From NCBI GenBank assembly GCA_022820625.1, contig JAJEFE010000070.1:1-64000 (forward strand): 64,000 nt of DNA. The letters run 5' to 3'. Positions within the stretch are counted from its first letter, which is position 1. Each line of letters opens with the position of its first letter. This DNA comes from Gammaproteobacteria bacterium (GTDB taxonomy: Bacteria > Pseudomonadota > Gammaproteobacteria > Steroidobacterales > Rariloculaceae). Shown here piece after piece: positions 9,901-36,530 of the stretch. Both the position numbers and the translations under genes were made by a program. The notes under the pieces are model-generated. The model was not told the origin of the DNA and ran no database searches. It worked only from the letters and a program-made list of their open reading frames with translations.

Positions 9901-10614
9901 ATGAACACGGCGCAGAGGTCGGTATTGAGGCGTGAAACGGTCACACGCCGGCGCTTTCTCACCGCATCCGCCCTGGCTGCACTCGCCATTTCGCGACCGG
10001 CGCCGATGCTCGCCCAGGGCAAACGGGTCATCATCGTCGGGGCGGGCCTCTCCGGACTGTACGCTGCCCGGCTTCTGGAACAGGCGGGCCTGGAAGTGGT
10101 CGTTGTAGAGGCTCGCGAGCGGGTCGGCGGGCGCGTACTGACACTCGACGATATCGAAGGACGGCCCGAAGCCGGCGGTAATCTCATTGGTGCGAACTAC
10201 GGCCGGTTGCTGTCGGTGGCCGTGCAGACGGATGTCGCCATGCGCCCTTCGAACGACGTCGAATCGCTGCCCACCGCTTACCTGATCAACGGCGACAGTT
10301 GCGACCGCTATGACAGGCAGGGGGACGAGGAAGCCGCTCGCCAGATTCTTGAGGACCTGTTTGGAACTTACCCGGGCGCTCGCGGAATCGTACGGCTGGA
10401 GAAACTGGTTCGCTGGCATCTGGATGCCTTCAGCCAGGGAAGCTGGGCCGTGTGGGCACCGGGGCAGATCGGCCGGTACTTCGCCGCGCTGCACCAGCCG
10501 GCGGGTTCGATCCATTTCGCCGGAGAACATACCGCTTACGCGTATTCCGGCATGGAAGGGGCCATGGAATCCGGCGAGCGGGCGGCGCTGGAAGTGCTGA
10601 GAGAACTGTCGTGA
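9901..10614 (+). pseudogene. Internally truncated flavin-containing amine oxidase
   Basis: N-terminal KRVIIVGAGLSGLYAARLLEQAGLEVVVVEARERVGGRV and C-terminal GSIHFAGEHTAYAYSGMEGAMESGERAALEVL in one 237-aa frame; about 200+ aa of the usual middle region missing. Confidence 0.65.
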
Positions 10615-11081
10615 AACACGCGCCGGGCATCGCGGTCCTGACGGCCGTGCTGCTCGCCCTGCCGGTTGGGAGCACATCCCAGGATCACGCCCGGACGGAC
10701 GGGGACACCGCGCCGACGGTGGAACCGGGAGCTGCGGATTCGGCCGCCGGGAACGGGAGTGGCTTGTCCGGCGAATACCTGTTCCTGGCCTGCGTCGGCT
10801 GTCACAGCCTGGATCCGGCGGATACCTATCTCGTGGGGCCTCACCTTGCGGGCATCGAGGGACGCCAGGCGGGCGAATTGGCGGACTACGCCTATTCCCC
10901 AGCGCTTGCCGAAGCATCCTTGGTGTGGGACCGCAATGTGCTGTTCAGTTGGATCGTGGCGGGGGAGAGCCTGCTCCCCAGCACCCACATGCTGTATCAC
11001 AACCACCTGGAGCCGGACGAGGTTTTCCGGCTGATCGATTTCCTTGAAGCAAGCGGCGAACCGCAAGCTGCGCAGCGATGA
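10611..11081 (+). CDS. Cytochrome c class I-like protein with signal peptide
   Basis: CVGCH haem motif, VGPHLAGIEGRQAG, distal Met region; GTG start overlapping upstream TGA (GTGA). Confidence 0.8.
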   Translation: MKHAPGIAVLTAVLLALPVGSTSQDHARTDGDTAPTVEPGAADSAAGNGSGLSGEYLFLACVGCHSLDPADTYLVGPHLAGIEGRQAGELADYAYSPALAEASLVWDRNVLFSWIVAGESLLPSTHMLYHNHLEPDEVFRLIDFLEASGEPQAAQR

Positions 11082-18954: not shown

Positions 18955-19635
18955 ATGCCCATAGCGGAAGTACTGGTGCTGCGATGGCTGCACATACTAG
19001 CGATGGTGTACTGGCTGGGAGGCGAATGGGGCGTATTCCAGACCTCGCGCCATGTCGTCGACCCCAACCTCTCCATGGAGGAACGGCGCCGGCACATGGA
19101 AACGGCCTACCGCATCGACATCCTCGCCAGGACAGGCATCATCCTGCTGTTACCCCTGGGCCTGCACATGGGTAACATGTATGGACTACAGCCCTACGGA
19201 GGGCCCTGGCTGTGGGGGATGTGGGTGGCGTTCGGCGGCTGGCTGGGGCTGTGCTGGGCCGCCTTCGTCCATCGCGAGACCGACCTGGGCGTGCGCCTGA
19301 CCCTCTGGGACGAGCGCATCCGCTACGTGGTCATACCGGTGCTGCTGGTATCGGCCGTGCTGTCGCTGCTCGGCCGTGGGCCGTTCCTGGCCGGACCGGG
19401 TTTGATGTGGTTCTCCTGGAAGATACTGATTTACAGCCTGCTCCTGGTCATCGGGCTGTACCTGCGCTTCGTCATGCGGGAATGGACCCAACTCTTCCGC
19501 GTATTGGCCGAAGGCCCCAACGCGGAGGTGGAGCGCAAGCTTGCGAAATCCCTGCGGTTCGGCAAGCGACTGGCGTACGTGTACTGGGTGGGCATCGCCG
19601 CGACCGCGTTTCTCGGCACGACCAAATTCGTGTAG
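18955..19635 (+). CDS. Multi-pass integral membrane protein, function unknown
   Basis: Several hydrophobic helices; RWLHILAMVYWLGGEWGVF; co-directional between MFS and CoA-transferase. Confidence 0.6.
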   Translation: MPIAEVLVLRWLHILAMVYWLGGEWGVFQTSRHVVDPNLSMEERRRHMETAYRIDILARTGIILLLPLGLHMGNMYGLQPYGGPWLWGMWVAFGGWLGLCWAAFVHRETDLGVRLTLWDERIRYVVIPVLLVSAVLSLLGRGPFLAGPGLMWFSWKILIYSLLLVIGLYLRFVMREWTQLFRVLAEGPNAEVERKLAKSLRFGKRLAYVYWVGIAATAFLGTTKFV

Positions 19636-19639
19636 CAGC

Positions 19640-20839
19640 ATGGCGCGCGCGCTGGAAGGGGTTCGCATACTGGATCTCACGCACATGCTGTCGGGCCCGT
19701 ACGCCAGCATGATTCTCGCGGACCTGGGCGCGGAAACCATCAAGGTGGAACCGCTCGCCGGAGAAGGCACGCGTCGGCTGCTGGCAAACGATCCGAAGCA
19801 CTCGCTGGAAGGGATGGGCGCCTACTTCCTGACGCTGAATCGCAACAAGAAGAGCATCGCCATCGACCTCAAGAACGAACGGGGCCTTAAGCTGTTTCAC
19901 GAACTGGTGGGCGTCTCCGATATCGTGATCAGCAACTTCACCCCCGGCGTACCGGAGCGGCTTGGTATCGACTACGAGTCGCTAGCCTCCGTCAACCCCC
20001 GCATCATCGCCTGCACGGTAACCGGGTTCGGCGCAAGCGGCCCCAGCCACCGGCGCCCGGCCTTCGATCAGGTCGCCCAGGCCACCGGCGGCGGCATGTC
20101 CATCACCGGTCCGGACCGGGAACACCCCGTACGCGCGGGGATCCCCATAGGCGATCTGGGCGGCGGCATGTTCGGCGTGATGGGCATCCTGGCGGCGCTG
20201 TACGAACGCGAACGCAGCGGCCGCGGCCAGGAAGTGGATATTTCCATGCTCGACGGGCAGATCTCCATGCTCAACTACATGGCGACCATGCACTTCCTCT
20301 CCGGCGAAGACCCCTACCCCATCGGCAACTCGCACTTCGTCCACGTGCCCTACAACACCTTCGCCTGCGCCGACGGGTTCATCGTGATCGCCGTGATCAC
20401 GGACAACTTCTGGCAGAATCTCAAGCAGGTGCTAGGCTGTGAGGATCTGGACGTGCCGGAGTACGACACCCAGCCCGGCCGCTGGCGCGACCGCGAATTC
20501 ATCAACCGCCGCCTGAACGAGGTGCTGGGCCGGGATACCTGCGCCAACTGGCTGCGGCGCCTGCAGAAGCAGCGCATTCCCTGTGCCCCCGTGAATTCAT
20601 TCGGACAGGCACTGTCCGATCCGCAAGTCCTGCATCGCAACATGGTAGTGGAATTGCGGCACCCCTCGGGCGGGAGTACCCGCGGTCCCGGCAACCCGAT
20701 CAAGCTGTCCCGCACCCAGGGGGAGACGTTCACCGCGGCGCCCACCCTGGGAGAGCACACGGACGAAGTGCTGCGAATCTGCCTTGGCATGGACGCCCCG
20801 GCAATCGAGCGGCTGCGTGGCGACGGGGTTATTGGCTGA
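19640..20839 (+). CDS. CaiB/BaiF (family III) CoA-transferase
   Basis: LEGVRILDLTHMLSGPYASMILADLGAETIKVEPLAGEGTRR, NRNKKSIAIDLKNERG. Confidence 0.92.
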   Translation: MARALEGVRILDLTHMLSGPYASMILADLGAETIKVEPLAGEGTRRLLANDPKHSLEGMGAYFLTLNRNKKSIAIDLKNERGLKLFHELVGVSDIVISNFTPGVPERLGIDYESLASVNPRIIACTVTGFGASGPSHRRPAFDQVAQATGGGMSITGPDREHPVRAGIPIGDLGGGMFGVMGILAALYERERSGRGQEVDISMLDGQISMLNYMATMHFLSGEDPYPIGNSHFVHVPYNTFACADGFIVIAVITDNFWQNLKQVLGCEDLDVPEYDTQPGRWRDREFINRRLNEVLGRDTCANWLRRLQKQRIPCAPVNSFGQALSDPQVLHRNMVVELRHPSGGSTRGPGNPIKLSRTQGETFTAAPTLGEHTDEVLRICLGMDAPAIERLRGDGVIG

Positions 20840-24985: not shown

Positions 24986-26386
24986 ATGCCTGAAACCCTT
25001 TTCGACAAGTTATGGAGCATTCACCGGGTCGCCAATACGGGTCAGGGGGAATGCCTGTTGCACCTGGACCGCATCTTCCTGCACGAGCGCACCGGCAGCG
25101 TCGCGCTGCTCAGCCTGGAACGGGCCAACCGGACGATTCGCTCGCCGGAACGGGTGTTCTGCACCATGGACCATATCGTGGATACGCGGCCGGGCCGGGG
25201 CGACGCCACTTCGGTACCCCACGGCGCGCGCTTCATCGCAGCCACCCGGGACAGCGCGAGGCGGGCGGGCATTCGCCTTTTCGACGTCAACGATCCGCGG
25301 CAGGGGATCGGCCACGTGATCGCGGCGGAACTGGGCATCGTACTGCCGGGCATGAGCGTGGTCTGCCCGGACAGCCACACCTGTACGCTGGGCGCGCTCG
25401 GTGCGCTCGCCTGGGGCATTGGTTCCACGGAGGCCGAGCACGCGCTGGCGACCGGTACCCTCCGCGTTTCCCGTCCCGGGTCAATGCGCGTGTCCTTCGA
25501 TGGCTGTGTCCCGGCGGGCGTCGCGCCGAAGGACCTGATCGTTCATCTCATCAGCCGTTTCGGAAGCCGGGCGGCGACCGGACATGCGGTGGAATTCGCA
25601 GGCCCCGCGATCGAGGCGATGCCGGTGGAGGGCCGCGCCACACTATGCAACATGGCGGTTGAAATGGGTGCGTTCACCGGGCTGGTCGCGCCTGACGAGC
25701 GGACCGTTCGTTACATTCGCGGACGCGAGTACGCGCCCACGGGCGGGCTTTGGGAACAAGCCGCCCGGCACTGGTCCGGACTGCACAGCGACAGCGGCGC
25801 ACGGTTCGACCGGGAACTTCGGGTCGACTGCGCGGCCATCGCGCCCACCGTCACCTGGGGCACCAACCCGGAGCAGGCGGTGCCGATCGGCAGCCGCGTG
25901 CCCGATCCGGACTCCTTTGCCGATCCGCATCAGGCCAGGGCCGCGGCCAGGGCACTGAAGTACATGGACCTGGCGCCCGGAACGCCGACGGACGCCATCC
26001 GAATCGATGCGGCCTTCATCGGATCCTGCACCAACAGCCGCCTGAGCGACCTGCGCGCGACGGCGGGTTACCTGCGAGGGCGGCGGATCGCACCGTGGGT
26101 CCGCGCGCTGTGCGTGCCGGGCTCGTCCAGCGTCAAGCGTGCCGCCGAAGCGGAAGGCCTCGACGAGGTATTTCGCCGGGCCGGCTTCGAATGGCGCGAG
26201 GCCGGCTGCTCCCTTTGCTTTCATGCCGGCGGCGAGTCATTCGGCGGTCAGCGGGTGATTTCCTCCACCAATCGCAATTTCCAGGGACGGCAGGGACCCG
26301 GAGCCCGCACCCACCTGGGCAGCCCGCTGACCGTGGCTGCCTCGGCCTGCCGCGGCTATATCTCCGTGGCGGAGTCCGCAGAATGA
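24986..26386 (+). CDS. LeuC-like (aconitase-superfamily hydro-lyase large subunit)
   Basis: CPDSHTCTLGALGALAWGIGSTEAEHALATGTL; IGSCTNSRLSDL; GCSLCFHAGGE Fe-S cysteines. Confidence 0.88.
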   Translation: MPETLFDKLWSIHRVANTGQGECLLHLDRIFLHERTGSVALLSLERANRTIRSPERVFCTMDHIVDTRPGRGDATSVPHGARFIAATRDSARRAGIRLFDVNDPRQGIGHVIAAELGIVLPGMSVVCPDSHTCTLGALGALAWGIGSTEAEHALATGTLRVSRPGSMRVSFDGCVPAGVAPKDLIVHLISRFGSRAATGHAVEFAGPAIEAMPVEGRATLCNMAVEMGAFTGLVAPDERTVRYIRGREYAPTGGLWEQAARHWSGLHSDSGARFDRELRVDCAAIAPTVTWGTNPEQAVPIGSRVPDPDSFADPHQARAAARALKYMDLAPGTPTDAIRIDAAFIGSCTNSRLSDLRATAGYLRGRRIAPWVRALCVPGSSSVKRAAEAEGLDEVFRRAGFEWREAGCSLCFHAGGESFGGQRVISSTNRNFQGRQGPGARTHLGSPLTVAASACRGYISVAESAE

Positions 26387-27030
26387 AACCGCAGCCGTTC
26401 ACGGTCCACCGGGGCATTGCCGCGCCGCTGCTGATCCGCAATATCGACACCGACACCATCATTCCATCGCGGGAAATTCAGCGCGTTTCCAAGCAGGGAC
26501 TGGGCGACGGACTGTTCGCCGGCTGGCGCTACAGGGCGCCCGGCGGTCGGGAACCGGACCCGGAATTCATCCTCAACCGCGACGGCTGGCAAGACACCAG
26601 CATCCTGCTGGCGGGCGCCAACTTCGGCTGCGGGTCGTCCCGGGAACACGCTGTCTGGGCGCTCGGGGAATTCGGCATCCGTGCGGTGCTGGCGCCGTCC
26701 TTCGGCAGCATCTTTCGCAACAACTGCACGTTGAACGGGATTCTTGCGCTAGTCGTGGAGGATGCGACGATCCGCACCCTCGCCGACTGGGTACAGACGA
26801 ATCCCCAACGCAATCAGCTGGAGATCAACCTCCAGAATCAAGTCATCGAGTGGAGGGCCGGAGGAACACTGGCCTTCGAGATCGAACCGGCCAAACGCCG
26901 CCTGTTGCTCCAGGGTCTCGACGGCATAGCGGTCACGCTGCAGCAGGCATCAGCCATCGACGAATTCGAAGTCGCGGACCGCGCCGTGCGACCCTGGGTC
27001 TACCGACTGCCGGCGCCTCCGGGCGCGTAG
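26383..27030 (+). CDS. LeuD-like (aconitase-superfamily hydro-lyase small subunit)
   Basis: RNIDTDTIIPSREIQ, AGANFGCGSSREHAVWAL, SIFRNNCTLNGIL; ATGA overlap with LeuC-like gene. Confidence 0.9.
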   Translation: MKPQPFTVHRGIAAPLLIRNIDTDTIIPSREIQRVSKQGLGDGLFAGWRYRAPGGREPDPEFILNRDGWQDTSILLAGANFGCGSSREHAVWALGEFGIRAVLAPSFGSIFRNNCTLNGILALVVEDATIRTLADWVQTNPQRNQLEINLQNQVIEWRAGGTLAFEIEPAKRRLLLQGLDGIAVTLQQASAIDEFEVADRAVRPWVYRLPAPPGA

Positions 27031-28423: not shown

Positions 28424-29365
28424 GTGGCGACGGATATCCTGATCAGTGAAGTCGGTCTGCGGGACGGCCTGCAGAGCATCGATGCCGTTCTGCCCACCGA
28501 ACGGAAAAAGGCCTGGATCGCGGCGCAGCATGCCGCCGGAACCCGCGAGATGGAAGTGGGTTCGTTTGTCCCCGCGAAGCTGATCCCGCAACTGGCCGAC
28601 ACGGCCGAGGTGGTGCGTCACGCAACAAGCCTGCCTGGGCTGCGCGTGGCGGCCCTGGTACCAAACCTTAACGGGTTGCGGGACGCTGTCGCCAACGGCG
28701 TGCACAAGGTCACCCTGCCCTTTTCCATGAGCGAAACCCATTCGATCAGAAATCTCCGCAAGACACATGCGCAGGTCATGGAGGAAATCGGGCGATGTAT
28801 CGGGTATCTGGACACCTTGCCCCGGGAACGGCGGCCGAAGTTCGAGGTCAGTCTCTCAACCGCTTTCGGGTGTACGCTCGAAGGGCCGGTGCCGGAACAA
28901 CGCGTGATCGGGTACGCGGAACGGGTCGTTGCACTTGGTGTCGATGAAGTCTGTCTGTCGGACACCACAGGCTACGGCAACCCTGCCCAGCTCAGGCGGC
29001 TCGTCCGCGGCGTACGGGAGACGTGCGGCGCGGACCGGCTCGACGGCGTGCATCTTCATAATACCCGGGGGCAGGGACTGGCCAATGCTGTCGCGGCCGT
29101 CGAGTTGGGCATCACCACCCTGGACAGTTCCCTGGGCGGCATCGGCGGCTGTCCCTGGGCGCCGGGCGCCAGCGGCAACATCGTCACCGAGGACCTGGTT
29201 TTCCTGCTGGAATCCATGGGCCTGGGTACGGGCATCGATCTGGAGGCGCTGATCGAAGTCCGCGAACTGGTCCAGGCGGCGCTGCCTGATGTCGAATTAT
29301 TCGGGTATACGCCAGCCGCGGGCCTGCCCCTGGGTTTTCGGCTCGCATGCGAACAGTCCCCGTAA
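28424..29365 (+). CDS. Hydroxymethylglutaryl-CoA lyase-like protein
   Basis: ISEVGLRDGLQSI, EVGSFVPAKLIPQLADTAEV, DSSLGGIGGCPWAPGASGNIVTEDLVF. Confidence 0.9.
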   Translation: MATDILISEVGLRDGLQSIDAVLPTERKKAWIAAQHAAGTREMEVGSFVPAKLIPQLADTAEVVRHATSLPGLRVAALVPNLNGLRDAVANGVHKVTLPFSMSETHSIRNLRKTHAQVMEEIGRCIGYLDTLPRERRPKFEVSLSTAFGCTLEGPVPEQRVIGYAERVVALGVDEVCLSDTTGYGNPAQLRRLVRGVRETCGADRLDGVHLHNTRGQGLANAVAAVELGITTLDSSLGGIGGCPWAPGASGNIVTEDLVFLLESMGLGTGIDLEALIEVRELVQAALPDVELFGYTPAAGLPLGFRLACEQSP

Positions 29366-29517
29366 CCGACCCTCGGTCGGGCCGCGCTGTCGGTCGCGTG
29401 GATGCAGCCGATACGGCTACGGTTCAGGGTATTGCCGCGCGGTTGCGCAGTGCACAGCCGGGCTGGAGGCAAGGCGGCCTCCATCGACCTGCTGCGCGAG
29501 AATCAGGCGGACTGACC
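29347..29517 (+). pseudogene. Possible aldehyde-dehydrogenase N-terminal remnant
   Basis: VPVTDPRSGRAVGRVDAADTATVQGIAARLRSAQPGW resembles an ALDH N-terminus; a shifted frame then gives DLLRENQAD followed by a stop; no catalytic region. Confidence 0.35.
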
Positions 29518-29552
29518 GTAGCCCGCAGGCCGGCTTGCATCCCGTGCGGCGG

Positions 29553-30515
29553 TCAGACGCGCGCGAGCGCGCGCTCGACCTGGCGCTCCAGGTTCTCCAT
29601 GGGCAGGACGTCGGGTCCGCGCTTGAGGACGAATTCCAGGAACCTTTCCGCGATCAGGGACATGGACCTGGAATTCGGGTAGACGACATGCCAATCGGAC
29701 AGCACGGGGAATCCCGCAACCCGCAACTGCACCAGGTCGGTCCCGACCGCGTCGGCCAGTACGTAGGCCGACAGGATCGTGATGCCCATGTTCTCCACCA
29801 CCGCGTACTTGATGGCCTCGTTGCTCTCGATGGTCATGGTCTTGCCGAGCTCTTCGCCCCGTCGGTCGAGATGACGGCGAACCGCGTTGAACGTCCCGGA
29901 GCCCGGCTCGCGCATGAGGAAAGTCTCGCTTTCCAGGTCTCGCCACCGGAGTCCCTTGCGCCCCGCCAGCCGATGACGCCGCGACGCGATGACGGCCAGC
30001 GGATTGGCCAGAAAGGGATGGGACGCGATGTCGAGCTCGCGCGGCAGGTCGTTGAAGATGTACAGATCGTCCCGGTTGTTGTCGAGCCTCGCGATGATCT
30101 GCGCGCGGTTTCCGACGTGGAATTCCACTTCGATCTCGGGATACTCGCGGCAGAATGCGCCCAATATGCGCGGCAGGAAATACTTGGCCGTGGTGACCAC
30201 TGCGATCCTGAGCCGGCCGGCCTTGAGCCCCTTCAACCCGTTGATGGTTTCGTCGAGGCGCCCGATCTCGGCGAACAGGCGGTTGGCCGTGGCGACCACC
30301 TCGCGGCCGGCATCGGTCAGGTAGAGCTGCTTTCCGATGACCTCGTGCAGCGGCAGTCCGACGGCTTCGGTGAGCTTGCGAACCTGCACCGACACGGCAG
30401 AGTGACTCAGGTAAAGCTCCTCGGACGCACGCGCCATGCTGCGGTGCTCGGCCACTTTCGCGAAAATCTGGAGCTGCCTGAGTGTCCCCAGGCGGGTGAA
30501 CAGCCGCGAATCCAT
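29553..30515 (-). CDS. LysR family transcriptional regulator
   Basis: LGTLRQLQIFAKVAEHRSMARASEELYLSHSAVSVQVRKLTEAVGLPLHEV wHTH. Confidence 0.92.
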   Translation of the reverse strand: MDSRLFTRLGTLRQLQIFAKVAEHRSMARASEELYLSHSAVSVQVRKLTEAVGLPLHEVIGKQLYLTDAGREVVATANRLFAEIGRLDETINGLKGLKAGRLRIAVVTTAKYFLPRILGAFCREYPEIEVEFHVGNRAQIIARLDNNRDDLYIFNDLPRELDIASHPFLANPLAVIASRRHRLAGRKGLRWRDLESETFLMREPGSGTFNAVRRHLDRRGEELGKTMTIESNEAIKYAVVENMGITILSAYVLADAVGTDLVQLRVAGFPVLSDWHVVYPNSRSMSLIAERFLEFVLKRGPDVLPMENLERQVERALARV

Positions 30516-30598
30516 CCGATTGCCCCGGACAATTATTTAATGATTATAAATGTATATGGTGAATATTATATAGTTTTACTTGTTATTGAGCCGCTCTA

Positions 30599-30616
30599 GG
30601 ATACAGGTCTGTATCC
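30599..30616. promoter_or_regulatory. 18-bp dyad GGATACAGgtCTGTATCC
   Basis: Perfect 8-bp arms, 2-bp spacer, 21 bp upstream of the cupin gene start. Confidence 0.6.
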
Positions 30617-30637: not shown

Positions 30638-31534
30638 ATGCGACCCCATGTTGAACTGGTCGATGAAAAAGACCTGATCTGGCACCCGGCCGAACTGCCG
30701 CACGGCAGCGGAGAGGCCCGCCAGCGCAACCTGTGCTACGACGAAGAGAACGGCGCGGCATCGCTGCTGGTGGAGTTCGTCACGGACTGGCGCCGCGGCG
30801 CGGGCCTGCATGCAGCCCAGACGGAATGGTACGTGCTCGAGGGCAGCATCAGGATCGGCGAGAAGCAAATGGGCGAAGGCGGCTACTGGGTGGCGCCCCG
30901 CGGCGTGACCACGCCCGCGATGAGCGCTGCGGCCGGCACGCGCATCCTGCTGTTTCGCGAGTACGCGGACTGGGCGTTCACGCCGGCCGAAAACGGCGCC
31001 GACGTGTCCGGCGACGGTCTCGTGGTCATGGATTCCAATGCCATGGACTGGTATGACGTGGTGCACCCGGAACATGGCAGCCCGATGGATTTCGACCGCG
31101 GCGGAACGCCGGTTCCGGGACTCTTCATCAAGCTCTTGTGGCGCGACCCCGAAAACGGGTTCTATACGCGACTCATCAAGGCCAAGCCCGGCTGGCGCGA
31201 GCATCCGCTGGCCCACCACCCGGTGTACGAAGAGGCCTACTGCCTTGACGGCGACTTCCACTACAACTTCGGTACGATGGTCAAGGGGCAGTATTTCTTC
31301 CGCCCGGCGGGCGTCCGTCACGGCGACTTCACCGCCGGCGAGGAGAATGGCTGCGTCTGGCTTCTGCGCTGCGACGGAGACCTGGTCGACTGGTACACGG
31401 ACAACGCCAGCGTCGAAATGAAGGGCGACCCCGTCAACTGGGGCGAGGGTTATCCGGACACGGAACCGCCGGTGTACCTGCAGCCGGTCCGGTCCCGGTC
31501 GATCGGGCCATGGAAGGATCCGAGCTACGTCTAG
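30638..31534 (+). CDS. Cupin-domain protein (bicupin-like)
   Basis: EWYVLEGSIRIGEKQMGEGGYWVAPRGVTTP and a second YCLDGDFHYNFGTMVKGQYFFRPAGVRHGDF motif. Confidence 0.72.
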   Translation: MRPHVELVDEKDLIWHPAELPHGSGEARQRNLCYDEENGAASLLVEFVTDWRRGAGLHAAQTEWYVLEGSIRIGEKQMGEGGYWVAPRGVTTPAMSAAAGTRILLFREYADWAFTPAENGADVSGDGLVVMDSNAMDWYDVVHPEHGSPMDFDRGGTPVPGLFIKLLWRDPENGFYTRLIKAKPGWREHPLAHHPVYEEAYCLDGDFHYNFGTMVKGQYFFRPAGVRHGDFTAGEENGCVWLLRCDGDLVDWYTDNASVEMKGDPVNWGEGYPDTEPPVYLQPVRSRSIGPWKDPSYV

Positions 31535-33051
31535 TGCTGGACCTGATCCTGAAGAATGTGCGTGTCGTTCGCACGGGTGGCGACGGCCCGGAGAACCTCG
31601 ACATCGGCATCGAGAACGGCAGGATTGTCCGTCTTGAGGCGGACATTCCGGTCGACGACGCCACGGCCGTGCTTGACGGGCAGAGTCGACTGGTGTTTCC
31701 GGGCCTGGTCGACGGGCACATGCATGTCGGCATTTACTCGCCGCTGGTGCAGGACGCCGTCACCGAGAGCAAGGCGGCCGCGATGGGTGGCGTCACATCC
31801 GCGATAACCTACTTCCGCACCGGGCAGTATTACCTGAACAAGGGCGGCTCTTACGAGGCGTTCTACCCCGAGGTTCTCGACATTTCGCGCGGTAACTACT
31901 GGGTCGATTACGCCTACCATCTCGCGCCCATATCCAGCCTCCACATCGACGAGATGGAATCGCTGCTGTCGAATCACGGCGTGTGCTCGTTCAAGATCTT
32001 CATGTTCTACGGCGGCTACGGTCTGCACGGCAAGAGCGGCAAGGATGCCCAGAAGCAGTTTCTCATGATCGGCGACGACGAGTCCTACGACATCGCCCAC
32101 TTCGAGTTCATCATGCGCTCGGCGCGGAAACTCATGGACAGGCATCCCGATAAGGCCGACCGGATCTCGGTCAGCCTGCACTGCGAACTGGCCGATATCC
32201 TCAACGCCTATACGAAGATCGTGCAGAGTGAAGGCAGGCTGACCGGGCTGCGCGCCTACAGCGCCGCGCGACCAGCGCACTCGGAAGGCCTTGCGGTCTG
32301 GATCGCCTCCTATCTCGCACATGAGACCGACTGCCTCAACATCAATCTGTTGCACCTGTCCTCGCGCAAGGCCGTGCAAGCGGCGCTCATGATGCAGGAC
32401 GTGTTTCCCCACATAAGCTTTCGCCGCGAGGTCACGATCGGGCATCTGCTGCTCGATTACGATGCACCGGCCGCGTGCCACGCGAAGGTCAATCCACCCA
32501 TTCGCTCGCGCGAGGACGTGGAATTCCTGTGGGAAAAGCTGCTCGAAGGCCGGATCGACTGGGTCGTTTCCGACCACGCCTGTTGCTCCGGAGAACTCAA
32601 GTCCGATCACCGGGACCCGAAGGACGGCAACAACATCTGGGTCTCCAAGTCGGGCTTCGGCGGTACCGAATACCTGCTCTCGGGCCTCTACAGCGAGGGT
32701 ACGAAACGCGGCCTGTCCGTCAACCGCATGGCTCGACTGGTCTGCAAGAATCCGGCCGAGCGGTACGGACTGCTCCGCAAGGGCGATATCGAGGTCGGCT
32801 ACGACGCGGATCTCGTCCTGTTCGACCCTGACGAAACGTTCACGGTTCGGGCAGCGGAGTCGCAGTCAGCGCAGGGTTATACGCCGTTCGAGGGTTTGGA
32901 ATTGACGGGGCGGGTCAAGACGACCCTGCTGCGCGGCGAGGTCGTCTACGACAAAGGCGGCATCGTCGGCGGGGCTCGGGGCCAATACCTGCGCCGACCG
33001 ACGAGCCCGCCGAAAATCGCCGGCATTGCGGCGCCTGCCCGCTCACCGTGA
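31510..33051 (+). CDS. Dihydropyrimidinase/hydantoinase-family amidohydrolase
   Basis: FPGLVDGHMHVGIYSP, CSFKIFMFYGG (metal-bridging Lys), VNPPIRSREDVEFLWEKLLEGRIDWVVSDHAC. Alternative GTG start at 31534. Confidence 0.86.
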   Translation: MEGSELRLVLDLILKNVRVVRTGGDGPENLDIGIENGRIVRLEADIPVDDATAVLDGQSRLVFPGLVDGHMHVGIYSPLVQDAVTESKAAAMGGVTSAITYFRTGQYYLNKGGSYEAFYPEVLDISRGNYWVDYAYHLAPISSLHIDEMESLLSNHGVCSFKIFMFYGGYGLHGKSGKDAQKQFLMIGDDESYDIAHFEFIMRSARKLMDRHPDKADRISVSLHCELADILNAYTKIVQSEGRLTGLRAYSAARPAHSEGLAVWIASYLAHETDCLNINLLHLSSRKAVQAALMMQDVFPHISFRREVTIGHLLLDYDAPAACHAKVNPPIRSREDVEFLWEKLLEGRIDWVVSDHACCSGELKSDHRDPKDGNNIWVSKSGFGGTEYLLSGLYSEGTKRGLSVNRMARLVCKNPAERYGLLRKGDIEVGYDADLVLFDPDETFTVRAAESQSAQGYTPFEGLELTGRVKTTLLRGEVVYDKGGIVGGARGQYLRRPTSPPKIAGIAAPARSP

Positions 33052-33082: not shown

Positions 33083-33706
33083 ATGAATCCGGATCTGCGC
33101 GATAACTACCGGGGCGCTTTCAGTGGCAGCCTGGGATTCGGCGCGAAGCCGGCCTTGATTCTCGTCGATTTCGTGCAAGCCTATTTCGACCGGAAGAGCC
33201 CCTTGTACGCCGGTGTCGAAGACGCCTTGGCGTCGGCGCTGCGCGTTCGCGCCGCTGCACGCGCTGCCCGTGTCCCGGTGTTTTACACCAACGTCGTGTA
33301 CCGGGAGGGCGGCGCCGACGGCGGCGTGTTCTACCGCAAGGTGCCGGCGCTGCAGGTTTTCGTTCAGGGCAACCCGCTGGGCGCCTGGCCCGAAGGGCTC
33401 GAGCCGGGCGAAGAAGAGTTCGTGATATCGAAGCAGTATCCGAGCGCTTTTTTCGGTACGTCGCTCGACGCCACGCTGACGGACCAGGGCATCGATACGC
33501 TGATCATCACGGGGCTCACGACGAGCGGCTGCATTCGAGCCACGTGCGTCGATACGGTTTCACACGGCTTCATCCCGATTGTCGTTGCCGACGCCTGCGG
33601 CGACCGGCATGCCTCGCCGCACGAAGCGAACCTGTTCGACATGAACGCCAAGTACGCCGACGTGATCGACGAGAAGGCGGTTATCGAATACCTGAAAGCG
33701 TTGTGA
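33083..33706 (+). CDS. Isochorismatase-family amidohydrolase (maleamate/carbamoylsarcosine amidase-like)
   Basis: Asp-Lys-Cys triad in ALILVDFVQAYF, VISKQYPSAFFGTSLD, ITGLTTSGCIRATCVDT. Confidence 0.86.
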   Translation: MNPDLRDNYRGAFSGSLGFGAKPALILVDFVQAYFDRKSPLYAGVEDALASALRVRAAARAARVPVFYTNVVYREGGADGGVFYRKVPALQVFVQGNPLGAWPEGLEPGEEEFVISKQYPSAFFGTSLDATLTDQGIDTLIITGLTTSGCIRATCVDTVSHGFIPIVVADACGDRHASPHEANLFDMNAKYADVIDEKAVIEYLKAL

Positions 33707-33709
33707 GGC

Positions 33710-34486
33710 TCAGAACTCCTCCAGCAGGCGGCCCTTGCCGATGATCGTGTCGTGAATCCCGCAGGCACGCAGTGCGTGCCACACGCAGGCGATGTTGATG
33801 GGGATGACCGGCTTCTGCAGCCAGTGTTCCATGGTCGGGAAAATGTCCACCGTCGAGAGATTGGTTCCGCACTGGATGATGGCATCCACGTCGTCGCCGT
33901 CAATCTCGCGAATGGCGTCCATGACCATCGGAATGGTGATTCGGGCGATCGAGGTCGCCGAGGGGCTGGCGAGCCCCCTGATGGCCTTCACTTCGAAGCC
34001 GATATCGTTGAAGAAGCGCTCGACGTTGTCGTCACCGATCGGTGGGTACGGCGTGATGACCGAGATTTTCCTTGCGCCGAACCGGTGCAGCGCGTCGCGC
34101 GTCGCGCCCGCGCCGGTCGTCAGGCCAAGTTCGCCGATCTGATCCTGGATTCCTTTTTCGAATTCAATGTTGCCGCCGAGACCCCCCCAGAACGTTTCGG
34201 CGGACATGCCGAGCATCAGGTGCGTGATCCTGGCGCTGAGAATGTTGCGTATCGAGATCGGCAGTTCCACCCGGAGCGCATCGAGAAAGCGCTCGAAGAC
34301 CGTATTGAAATCGTCGCCCGAACGCTCGGATTCGTCGGCCCAGTCGGGAATCTCGATCCAGATCCGCGACGGGTGCCAGGTCAAACCGTCCAGGCTGATC
34401 TTTTGCAGGTCGTACTCCACGCCGGTGTTCGTGGAGGGTATGAGCACCCCGATGCGGGCGCGATGGGCGTTTTGGTAATTGTCCAT
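33710..34486 (-). CDS. Asp/Glu racemase superfamily protein (maleate isomerase/arylmalonate decarboxylase type)
   Basis: RIGVLIPSTNTGVEYDL, ISVITPYPPIGDDNVERFF, AIIQCGTNLSTVD. Confidence 0.8.
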   Translation of the reverse strand: MDNYQNAHRARIGVLIPSTNTGVEYDLQKISLDGLTWHPSRIWIEIPDWADESERSGDDFNTVFERFLDALRVELPISIRNILSARITHLMLGMSAETFWGGLGGNIEFEKGIQDQIGELGLTTGAGATRDALHRFGARKISVITPYPPIGDDNVERFFNDIGFEVKAIRGLASPSATSIARITIPMVMDAIREIDGDDVDAIIQCGTNLSTVDIFPTMEHWLQKPVIPINIACVWHALRACGIHDTIIGKGRLLEEF

Positions 34487-34544: not shown

Positions 34545-35369
34545 TCATGCCGCCTCCGCCGAGAAAAACTCGCACAACAGCGCCGCGACTTCATGACAGT
34601 GCGTCTCGCAGACAAACGTTCCGGCGTCGGCGATCTCGCGTTTCGAACCGTTGGCGAGCAGGGCGAGGGCGGCATTCAACTGAGAGTGCAGTACGTCCCG
34701 GGTACCGGCGAAAACGAGTACGGGACAGGTCAGTGCGGCCAGCACCCTTTCAACGTCGTGCGCCATCACGGCCTCGTAGGCGGCGGAATAACGGTCATCC
34801 AGAGCGATGGCGCTGAGTGTTTCCCGCTGCGCGATCTCAAGCGGAACATCCCGATCCATCCGGCAAATGCCTCGCCACCTCTTCACGAGATGGCCCCCGG
34901 CGTCGTCGATCAGCGGCGTGGCTGCGACTTCGGGCAGCTTCGCCCTGAGAGTTGCGTCGATCAGGGTCGGGCCCGACAGGGCAAGAGCGTCGACCCGGTT
35001 CGGGTGATCCGCGGCCAGCTGTGTGGCAATGGCCGCACCCGTGTGGTGCCCGAACACGAAGCACCGGTCGATTCCGAGTTCGTCGAGGAACTCGATCAAG
35101 CCGCTCGCCAGTGCGTCGATCGTCATCTCGCCGGCGACAGGATCGCTGAGTCCCATACCCGGTGTGTCGGGGGCGAACAGGCGGTAGTCGTGTGCCAACG
35201 CCGACAGGAGATCTTCATACATTGCCGACGTGCTCGGTGTCTGATGCAACAGCATCAGCACCGGCCGGTGCGCCGGACCGGCGTAGCGGTAGTGAATCTG
35301 GCCGAACGAAACCGTCGTGTAGCCGCGCGATACCTTCACGCCTTGCTCCCGAGATTGAAGGCGCACCAC
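34545..35369 (-). CDS. Alpha/beta-hydrolase fold protein with GHHTG elbow
   Basis: LMLLHQTPSTSAMYEDLL, APDTPGMGLSDP, FGHHTGAAIATQLAADHP. Confidence 0.82.
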   Translation of the reverse strand: MVRLQSREQGVKVSRGYTTVSFGQIHYRYAGPAHRPVLMLLHQTPSTSAMYEDLLSALAHDYRLFAPDTPGMGLSDPVAGEMTIDALASGLIEFLDELGIDRCFVFGHHTGAAIATQLAADHPNRVDALALSGPTLIDATLRAKLPEVAATPLIDDAGGHLVKRWRGICRMDRDVPLEIAQRETLSAIALDDRYSAAYEAVMAHDVERVLAALTCPVLVFAGTRDVLHSQLNAALALLANGSKREIADAGTFVCETHCHEVAALLCEFFSAEAA

Positions 35370-35408: not shown

Positions 35409-36530
35409 TCAGCCCCGTTCCGCCAGCGGCACCCAGGCCCTCAGGCTCGGTCCGGCGTATTCCGCGCCAGGACGGATGAGCTTGTTGTCCGCCCGCTGCT
35501 CGAACACGTGCGCCGACCAGCCGGTGATGCGCGAGCACACGAAAATCGGCGTGAACAGGTACGTCGGAATGCCCATGAAGTGGTAAACGCTGGCGGAATA
35601 GAAATCCGCGTTGGCGAACAGCTTCTTCTCCTCCCACATGATCCGCTCGATCACTTCGGATACGGCGTAGAGCCGCTCGTCGCCCACTTCCTCGGCGAGG
35701 CGCGCAGACATGCGCTTGTTCACCGAGTTGCGCGGGTCCACGCTCGTGTACACCCGATGACCGAACCCCATGATCAGTTCCTTGCGGGCCAGCATGTCGC
35801 GCACGCCTTGTTCGGCCGCCTCCGGCGAATCGAACCTCTCGATCAGTTCCATGGCCGCCTCGTTGGCCCCGCCATGCAGTGGGCCGCGCAACGCACCGAT
35901 GGCGCCGGCGATGGCGGAGTGAAAGTCCGACAGGGTGGCGGTGATCACCCGGGCGGTAAAGGTCGAGGCGTTGAACTCGTGCTCGGCGTACAGGATCAGC
36001 GAAGTATCCAGGGTGCGCCGGTGAAGTTCGCTTGGCGGGACATCGTGGAGCAGGTGCAGGAAGTGACCCGCGACGCTGTCGTCGTCGGTTGAGGTCTCGA
36101 TGCGCTTCCCGTCGGCGTGAAACCGGTGCCAGTACAGCAACATGGACGGGAAGGCGGCGAGCAGCCGGTCGGCGGCGTCGCGCTGCCCCGAGAAATCCAT
36201 CTCCGGTTCCAGGTTGCCCAGCACCGAGCAACCCGTGCGCAGCACGTCCATGGGATGAGTGTCGGCAGGGATGAACTCCAATGCCTGTTTCAGCACGCTG
36301 GGCAAGGCACGCAGCGACTTGAGCCTCTCCCGGTAGGCGGACAGCTCATCGGCGTTGGGGAGGCACCCGTGATGGAGCAGGTGGGCAACCTCCTCGAACG
36401 ACGCGTTGTCGGCCAAATCGTAGATGTCGTAACCACGGTAGGTGAGGCCCGCACCCTTCTTGCCGACAGTACAGATTTCGGTGCGGCCGGCAATGACGCC
36501 CGCCAGGCCGCCGGTTTTCTTCTGGCTCAT
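35409..36530 (-). CDS. prpC: Citrate synthase family, 2-methylcitrate synthase-like
   Basis: GLAGVIAGRTEICTVGKKGAGLTYRGYDIYDLADNASFEEVAHLL, HPMDVLRTGCSVLGNLEPE, LHGGANEAAMELI. Confidence 0.82.
   Translation of the reverse strand: MSQKKTGGLAGVIAGRTEICTVGKKGAGLTYRGYDIYDLADNASFEEVAHLLHHGCLPNADELSAYRERLKSLRALPSVLKQALEFIPADTHPMDVLRTGCSVLGNLEPEMDFSGQRDAADRLLAAFPSMLLYWHRFHADGKRIETSTDDDSVAGHFLHLLHDVPPSELHRRTLDTSLILYAEHEFNASTFTARVITATLSDFHSAIAGAIGALRGPLHGGANEAAMELIERFDSPEAAEQGVRDMLARKELIMGFGHRVYTSVDPRNSVNKRMSARLAEEVGDERLYAVSEVIERIMWEEKKLFANADFYSASVYHFMGIPTYLFTPIFVCSRITGWSAHVFEQRADNKLIRPGAEYAGPSLRAWVPLAERG

Follow-up and report, generated by a model that had tools for sequence, protein, structure and literature searches.

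A racemase-superfamily protein that probably lacks both catalytic thiols and belongs to a widespread cysteine-free clade

The window studied here (64,000 nucleotides, positions 1 to 64,000 of contig JAJEFE010000070.1 from a gammaproteobacterium of the Rariloculaceae) encodes a protein of the Asp/Glu racemase superfamily whose chemistry is not evident from its family. The mechanisms described for this superfamily (racemisation, maleate isomerisation and decarboxylation by arylmalonate decarboxylase, AMDase) are all understood in terms of one or two cysteines. Maleate isomerase uses one Cys for a Michael addition to C2 of maleate and another as a proton shuttle, while in AMDase Cys188 protonates an enediolate held by a dioxyanion hole (PMC12576825); AMDase has Gly, not Cys, at the N-half position (PMC4996985). 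The first-pass annotation had noted an N-terminal half without Cys, taken a second-half Cys to be the catalytic one and suggested that the enzyme may be a decarboxylase, like the single-Cys AMDase, or have another chemistry rather than being a maleate isomerase. Which of these chemistries, if any, can the protein support?

The ORF is real, intact and under purifying selection. Orthologues in related gammaproteobacterial MAGs are 84–95% identical, and dN/dS was 0.05–0.13 where dS was finite and unsaturated. Its position was as first described, as was the lack of Cys in the N-terminal half (the only cysteines are residues 206, 234 and 242), and both motifs quoted at the time, LGMSAETFWGG and AIIQCGTNLS, are present in the translation. 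A Cys-free half of approximately 129 residues has a chance probability of 0.99^129 = 0.27, assuming 1% Cys, so we dropped the absence as significant per se; only at the site that aligns with the catalytic residue does it carry information. The orthologue in a Candidatus Rariloculus versatilis MAG (L018:726-1485) carries a frameshift near residue 31 that breaks it in two, and the alpha/beta hydrolase gene next to it is likewise broken, reflecting either assembly error or decay.

Table 1. Coordinates of the racemase-like gene, key codons and neighbouring genes in the window.
Feature	Position	Strand	Basis or remark
Racemase-superfamily ORF, 258 aa	33710..34486	(-)	Pfam Amdase PF17645, 54.4 bits vs cut-off 25.9
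His38 of TxHxxR motif, candidate acid/base	34373..34375	(-)	Clade-invariant; His also in 14/41 relatives
Met94, N-half catalytic Cys position (AMDase Gly74)	34205..34207	(-)	MAFFT alignment and L010 bridge
Ser95, likely part of carboxylate cradle	34202..34204	(-)	37/37 in clade; Thr in 34/41 relatives
Tyr147 (AMDase Tyr126)	34046..34048	(-)	Invariant in 78/78 proteins
Gln205, clade hallmark	33872..33874	(-)	37/37 in clade; mostly Val/Ile/Leu/Met outside
Cys206, residue before catalytic Cys position	33869..33871	(-)	Alignment, tree
Gly207, C-half catalytic Cys position (AMDase Cys188, maleate isomerase Cys194)	33866..33868	(-)	HMMER, MAFFT; clade-invariant
Isochorismatase-family amidohydrolase, convergent neighbour, conserved partner of clade	33083..33706	(+)	Family match, co-location
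Allantoinase/hydantoinase-like amidohydrolase	31510..33051	(+)	
Alpha/beta hydrolase, just upstream, same strand as racemase-like gene	34545..35369	(-)	Homologues beside clade gene in Chloroflexota loci
2-Methylcitrate/citrate synthase, upstream on strand of racemase-like gene	35409..36530	(-)	
CoA-transferase family III	19541..20839	(+)	57–62% identical homologues near clade gene in Chloroflexota and Tistrella
Aconitase/LeuCD-like hydratase pair	24986..27030	(+)	24986-26386; Aconitase_C in ORF 25750-27030; similar pair in L066

The structure was modelled with AF2 from an alignment of 16 sequences (pLDDT 84, pTM 0.85); a model built from the single sequence (pLDDT 36) was discarded. Foldseek gave maleate isomerase 2xed as the best match (TM 0.83/0.87), with AMDase 3dg9 close (TM 0.79/0.88) and racemases farther away. 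The Asp/Glu racemase superfamily fold is supported by Foldseek probabilities of 1.00 to maleate isomerase, AMDase and racemases, as well as by the above-threshold Pfam Amdase match.

The position of the remaining C-half Cys relative to the catalytic thiol is central to the question. We aligned 78 sequences, comprising 37 proteins without either Cys and 41 Cys-bearing relatives (one truncated sequence was left out); both the register and the active-site geometry were read from sequence and profile alignments. In seven MAFFT settings, the catalytic C-half Cys of all 41 relatives fell on Gly207, while the Cys206 column held the residue preceding it, usually Ser; the second-half Cys first thought to be catalytic is therefore off by one residue. 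Position 94 was occupied by Cys in 32 of the 41 relatives and by Gly in nine under six settings, the seventh giving seven Gly and two gaps. Ungapped BLOSUM62 scoring agreed: the mean was 8.4 for the C half in the Gly207 register and 4.2 for the N half in the Met94 register, whereas displacement by one or two residues brought either score to −6.5 or lower. A HMMER profile of the clade placed the Cys of 2dgd (IACTALST) on Gly, and Cys194 and Cys193 of 2xec on Gly207 and position 206, respectively. An AMDase homologue, L010, provided a bridge to AMDase itself, matching 3dtv with 206 bits and without gaps at Gly74 and Cys188, and equating Gly74 with Met94, Thr75 with Ser95, Cys188 with Gly207 and Gly189 with Thr208. 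An hhalign comparison of the clade with maleate isomerases was ambiguous at each of the two catalytic loops, and we set it aside in determining the register. Since this register puts Met94 and Gly207 on the thiol positions, the protein does not carry one catalytic Cys per half, and sequence comparison makes it very probable that both catalytic thiols are missing and that the protein belongs to a Cys-free clade. Several relatives (L031, L032, L007, L116 and L125) combine an N-half Gly with a C-half Cys outside the AMDase-like group and represent further single-Cys types.

In a tree of 75 sequences, from which the catalytic columns and three long-branched rows were removed, the 37 proteins without either Cys occupied one side of a branch with UFBoot/SH-aLRT support of 100/100; the same split had a support of 99 before the long-branched rows were taken out. 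The tree is unrooted, so a single loss of the thiols in the clade would be beyond proof from it. The clade spans Gamma-, Alpha- and Betaproteobacteria, Chloroflexota, Acidobacteriota and Actinomycetota. Identity to the window protein is approximately 50% for paralogues from related genomes (L011, L017) and 44–48% for proteins from Chloroflexota and one Acidobacteriota MAG; members on alpha- and betaproteobacterial plasmids are mostly 32–46% identical, and a Rhodococcus plasmid is also represented. In this sample of genomes the clade is rare, being detected by E-value and identity in three (G000, G309, G371) of 349 Pseudomonadota genomes, and a search for relatives among viral contigs found none.

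Within the clade, position 94 is Met in 30 proteins, Ile in three, Val in three and Leu in one, and position 207 is Gly in all 37. Position 206 is Val in 27, Cys in seven, and Ala, Leu and Phe in one each, with Cys206 requiring three state changes on the tree; because Val is found there in 27 of the 37, Cys206 is not a family catalyst. Residues invariant in all 37 include Arg9, Pro17, Ser18, Asn20, Thr21, His38, Arg41, Ser95, Tyr147, Gln205, Gly207, Asn209, Glu220, Asn231 and Trp236, whereas Glu97 is kept in 25. The superfamily polar residues retained in the window protein, which would surround the substrate carboxylate, are Asn20, Ser95, Tyr147, Thr208-Asn209 and Asn231. One genome carries two clade members approximately 3 kb apart (L017:6386-7150 and 10001-10774), one with Cys206 and the other with Val206; a TonB receptor gene lies between them, and genes for a FAD monooxygenase and aldehyde dehydrogenases lie upstream.

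The neighbourhood in the window (table 1) also includes a cupin, HMG-CoA-lyase-like proteins and CoA-transferases III. The isochorismatase-family protein is the sole homologue in its own genome at E ≤ 1e-8, and its nearest solved structure is N-carbamoylsarcosine amidohydrolase (26st, 4e-46), followed by 3ot4/3uao (NicF; 6.5e-41). With one to four such homologues per genome, the best one sits no more than 5 kb from the clade gene in G000, G018, G309, G371, G320, G324 and G327; in G330 it is not close. On plasmids, an isochorismatase gene was found near the clade gene in L059, L060, L062, L063 and L066, and none near it in L058, L061 and L067. Other neighbours of clade genes differ by lineage, being an alpha/beta hydrolase, a CoA-transferase III or a FAD monooxygenase. 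FAD_binding_3/FAD-dependent monooxygenases adjoin the clade gene in L017, L026, L059 and L063, that of L026 resembling PnpA and HspB, and GntR-type regulators are nearby in several loci. The alpha/beta hydrolase of the window matched no solved structure at E ≤ 1e-15, and the hydantoinase homologue was found solely in loci of the window lineage, with none in the Chloroflexota loci. A predicted plus-strand ORF at 29289-30599 without a Pfam match is overlapped by a minus-strand 320-aa ORF (29553-30515), so either may be the true gene.

Such company suggests that an amide or N-heterocycle is broken down, without fixing the substrate. A hydantoin/N-carbamoyl route (hydantoinase, carbamoylase, racemase) was considered and is retained as a candidate because the isochorismatase-family protein is nearest to N-carbamoylsarcosine amidohydrolase. 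Our literature search found no paper pairing maleate isomerase or AMDase with an isochorismatase or hydantoinase.

A second setting for the clade is pigment biosynthesis. In Leisingera and Rhizobium, clade proteins are encoded beside genes for an NRPS, a tautomerase and an MFS protein; in Bradyrhizobium the neighbour is the NRPS gene. This set corresponds to the published indigoidine operon, in which igiC is annotated as an arylmalonate decarboxylase (PMC5014874). PMC12826045 credits earlier work with implicating igiB and igiC in indigoidine production.

How might the protein work, given these observations? Some racemases also have a single Cys, among them the L-Asp/Glu racemase of E. coli, whose structure paper is cited in PMC12661438, so one Cys alone would not indicate decarboxylation. 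The initial proposal, an AMDase-like decarboxylase in which Cys206 protonates the enediolate once CO2 is lost, is consistent with the Pfam Amdase match, the retained Tyr147, the close fold of AMDase structures and the N-half Gly of AMDase itself (PMC4996985), but we now regard it as very improbable. Cys206 is one residue off register and is replaced by Val, Ala, Leu or Phe in 30 of the 37 clade proteins, while Gly, Met and Thr stand at the positions of AMDase Cys188, Gly74 and Gly189. The dioxyanion-hole residues Thr75/Ser76/Tyr126/Gly189, which align with Ser95/Ala96/Tyr147/Thr208, give a mixed picture: the Tyr is kept, Thr75 is changed conservatively and the other two are changed. The AMDase motifs LMGTSLSF and ILLSCGGL (PMC4996985) are represented by LGMSAETF and IIQCGTNL, and NCBIfam scores fall below the cut-offs for both AMDase (NF052327, 51.7 bits against 225) and EutA (TIGR02990, 72.8 bits against 318, over residues 105-256 only). 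Moving the Cys of AMDase to the opposite face (G74C/C188S) came at a 20,000-fold cost to that enzyme (PMC12576825). Cys206 could instead be a new gain of the window lineage only, serving there as a catalytic thiol once the loop has shifted. It is present in all five distinct tree rows of that lineage, and the three state changes in the clade fit such gains; however, Val206 accompanies the remaining motif residues both in the paralogues from related genomes (approximately 50% identity) and in the Chloroflexota proteins (approximately 45%), and lineage-specific recruitment appears improbable.

A maleate or citraconate cis-trans isomerase would account for the closest structural matches and for the combination of an alpha/beta hydrolase, an amidase of the isochorismatase family and an isomerase of the Asp/Glu racemase family, which recalls the lower nic/hsp pathway, the isochorismatase-family neighbour matching 3ot4/3uao. 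Both of the cysteines that this reaction requires (PMC12576825), the N-half nucleophile and Cys194, are replaced by Met94 and Gly207, however, which upholds the early caution over the name; the isochorismatase-family protein is slightly closer to N-carbamoylsarcosine amidohydrolase, and the alpha/beta hydrolase lacks a close solved relative. Isomerisation is accordingly a highly doubtful assignment. Loss of both catalytic residues, together with the GntR-type regulators in several loci, could also suggest a pseudoenzyme or a ligand-binding or regulatory protein that retains the carboxylate-binding cleft. This seems unlikely given the low dN/dS and the conservation of polar cleft residues in 37 of 37 proteins, including the clade-specific Gln205, and it is further weakened because, according to PMC12826045, igiC has been implicated in indigoidine production. 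For the window protein, none of the three mechanisms (maleate isomerase, two-thiol racemase, AMDase) is supported.

The reading we favour, with a probability of roughly 0.7, is that the window protein is a member of a thiol-free clade in the maleate isomerase/AMDase/EutA branch, in which the fold binds a carboxylate and supports a reaction independent of thiols. With Met94 and Gly207 at the standard positions, neither Cys chemistry, that of maleate isomerase or that of AMDase, would be possible there, although binding of a carboxylate substrate remains likely as the surrounding residues are kept. Gln205, invariant beside the vacated thiol site, probably orients the substrate or a water molecule. 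Candidate reactions would be tautomerisation, hydrolysis or decarboxylation, in which water, His38 or Glu97 would move the proton; we nominate no single catalyst residue because Glu97 is found in only 25 of 37 clade proteins and many proteins beyond the clade also have His38. The protein is probably an active enzyme, not a pseudoenzyme. The substrate may be an intermediate of a catabolic route that includes the isochorismatase-type amidohydrolase and, depending on lineage, an alpha/beta hydrolase, a FAD monooxygenase, a LeuCD-like hydratase and CoA-transferase/lyase steps; an imide, half-amide or hydroxypyridine is a tentative suggestion for its type. Most likely, the window protein is an enzyme that acts on a small carboxylate without a thiol, and its pathway may be one that degrades N-heterocycles or imides.

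For the clade as a whole, the odds seem about even that it is an enzyme family with thiol-independent chemistry via Gln205 and a carboxylate cradle, acting mostly in N-heterocycle, imide or half-amide catabolism and in indigoidine biosynthesis in the IgiC branch, with a misleading label. Subgroups differ in genomic context, and one common substrate may not hold. Annotated public records with clade genes are mostly named arylmalonate decarboxylase. This label is probably wrong for the window protein, as is any role as a maleate isomerase, and annotation or pathway reconstruction resting on the name is likely to be wrong, IgiC included. A selected, coherent clade without either Cys in several phyla implies that the fold supports other chemistry.

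Compared with known systems, the window protein is like the maleate isomerases of Nocardia farcinica (2xec/2xed) and Pseudomonas putida S16 (Iso, 4fq5/4fq7) in its fold, PS[ST]N and HxxR motifs, conserved Tyr and similar pathway company, but differs in the replacement of both catalytic Cys, an identity of 22% and a C-half loop one residue shorter. It shares with AMDase of Bordetella bronchiseptica (3dg9/3dtv) the fold, the Tyr126 equivalent and the lack of an N-half Cys, and departs from it in Cys188 to Gly, Gly74 to Met and Gly189 to Thr, as well as in its sub-threshold NCBIfam score. AMDase homologues also occur in relatives' genomes (L010:1342-2142 on the plus strand, and L012 at approximately 1504-2220), with Gly74, Thr75-Ser76 and Cys188-Gly189 kept; the residues upstream in L010, VFLAGAAGVAAVGCSREPSG, resemble a lipoprotein signal, which would make that protein periplasmic. 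EutA and the two-Cys CTS...CTN relatives gave the best NCBIfam score, through the C-terminal half and far under the cut-off, and several have TN after the catalytic position, but unlike the window protein they retain both Cys. The IgiC proteins (Leisingera, with the same arrangement in Rhizobium and Bradyrhizobium) belong to the same clade, being Cys-free at both positions with Gln205-x-Gly207-Thr-Asn. They form a separate subclade, however, with AVSPDGYW or ALSPDGSW where the window protein has GMSAETFW, and their operon is biosynthetic, not catabolic.
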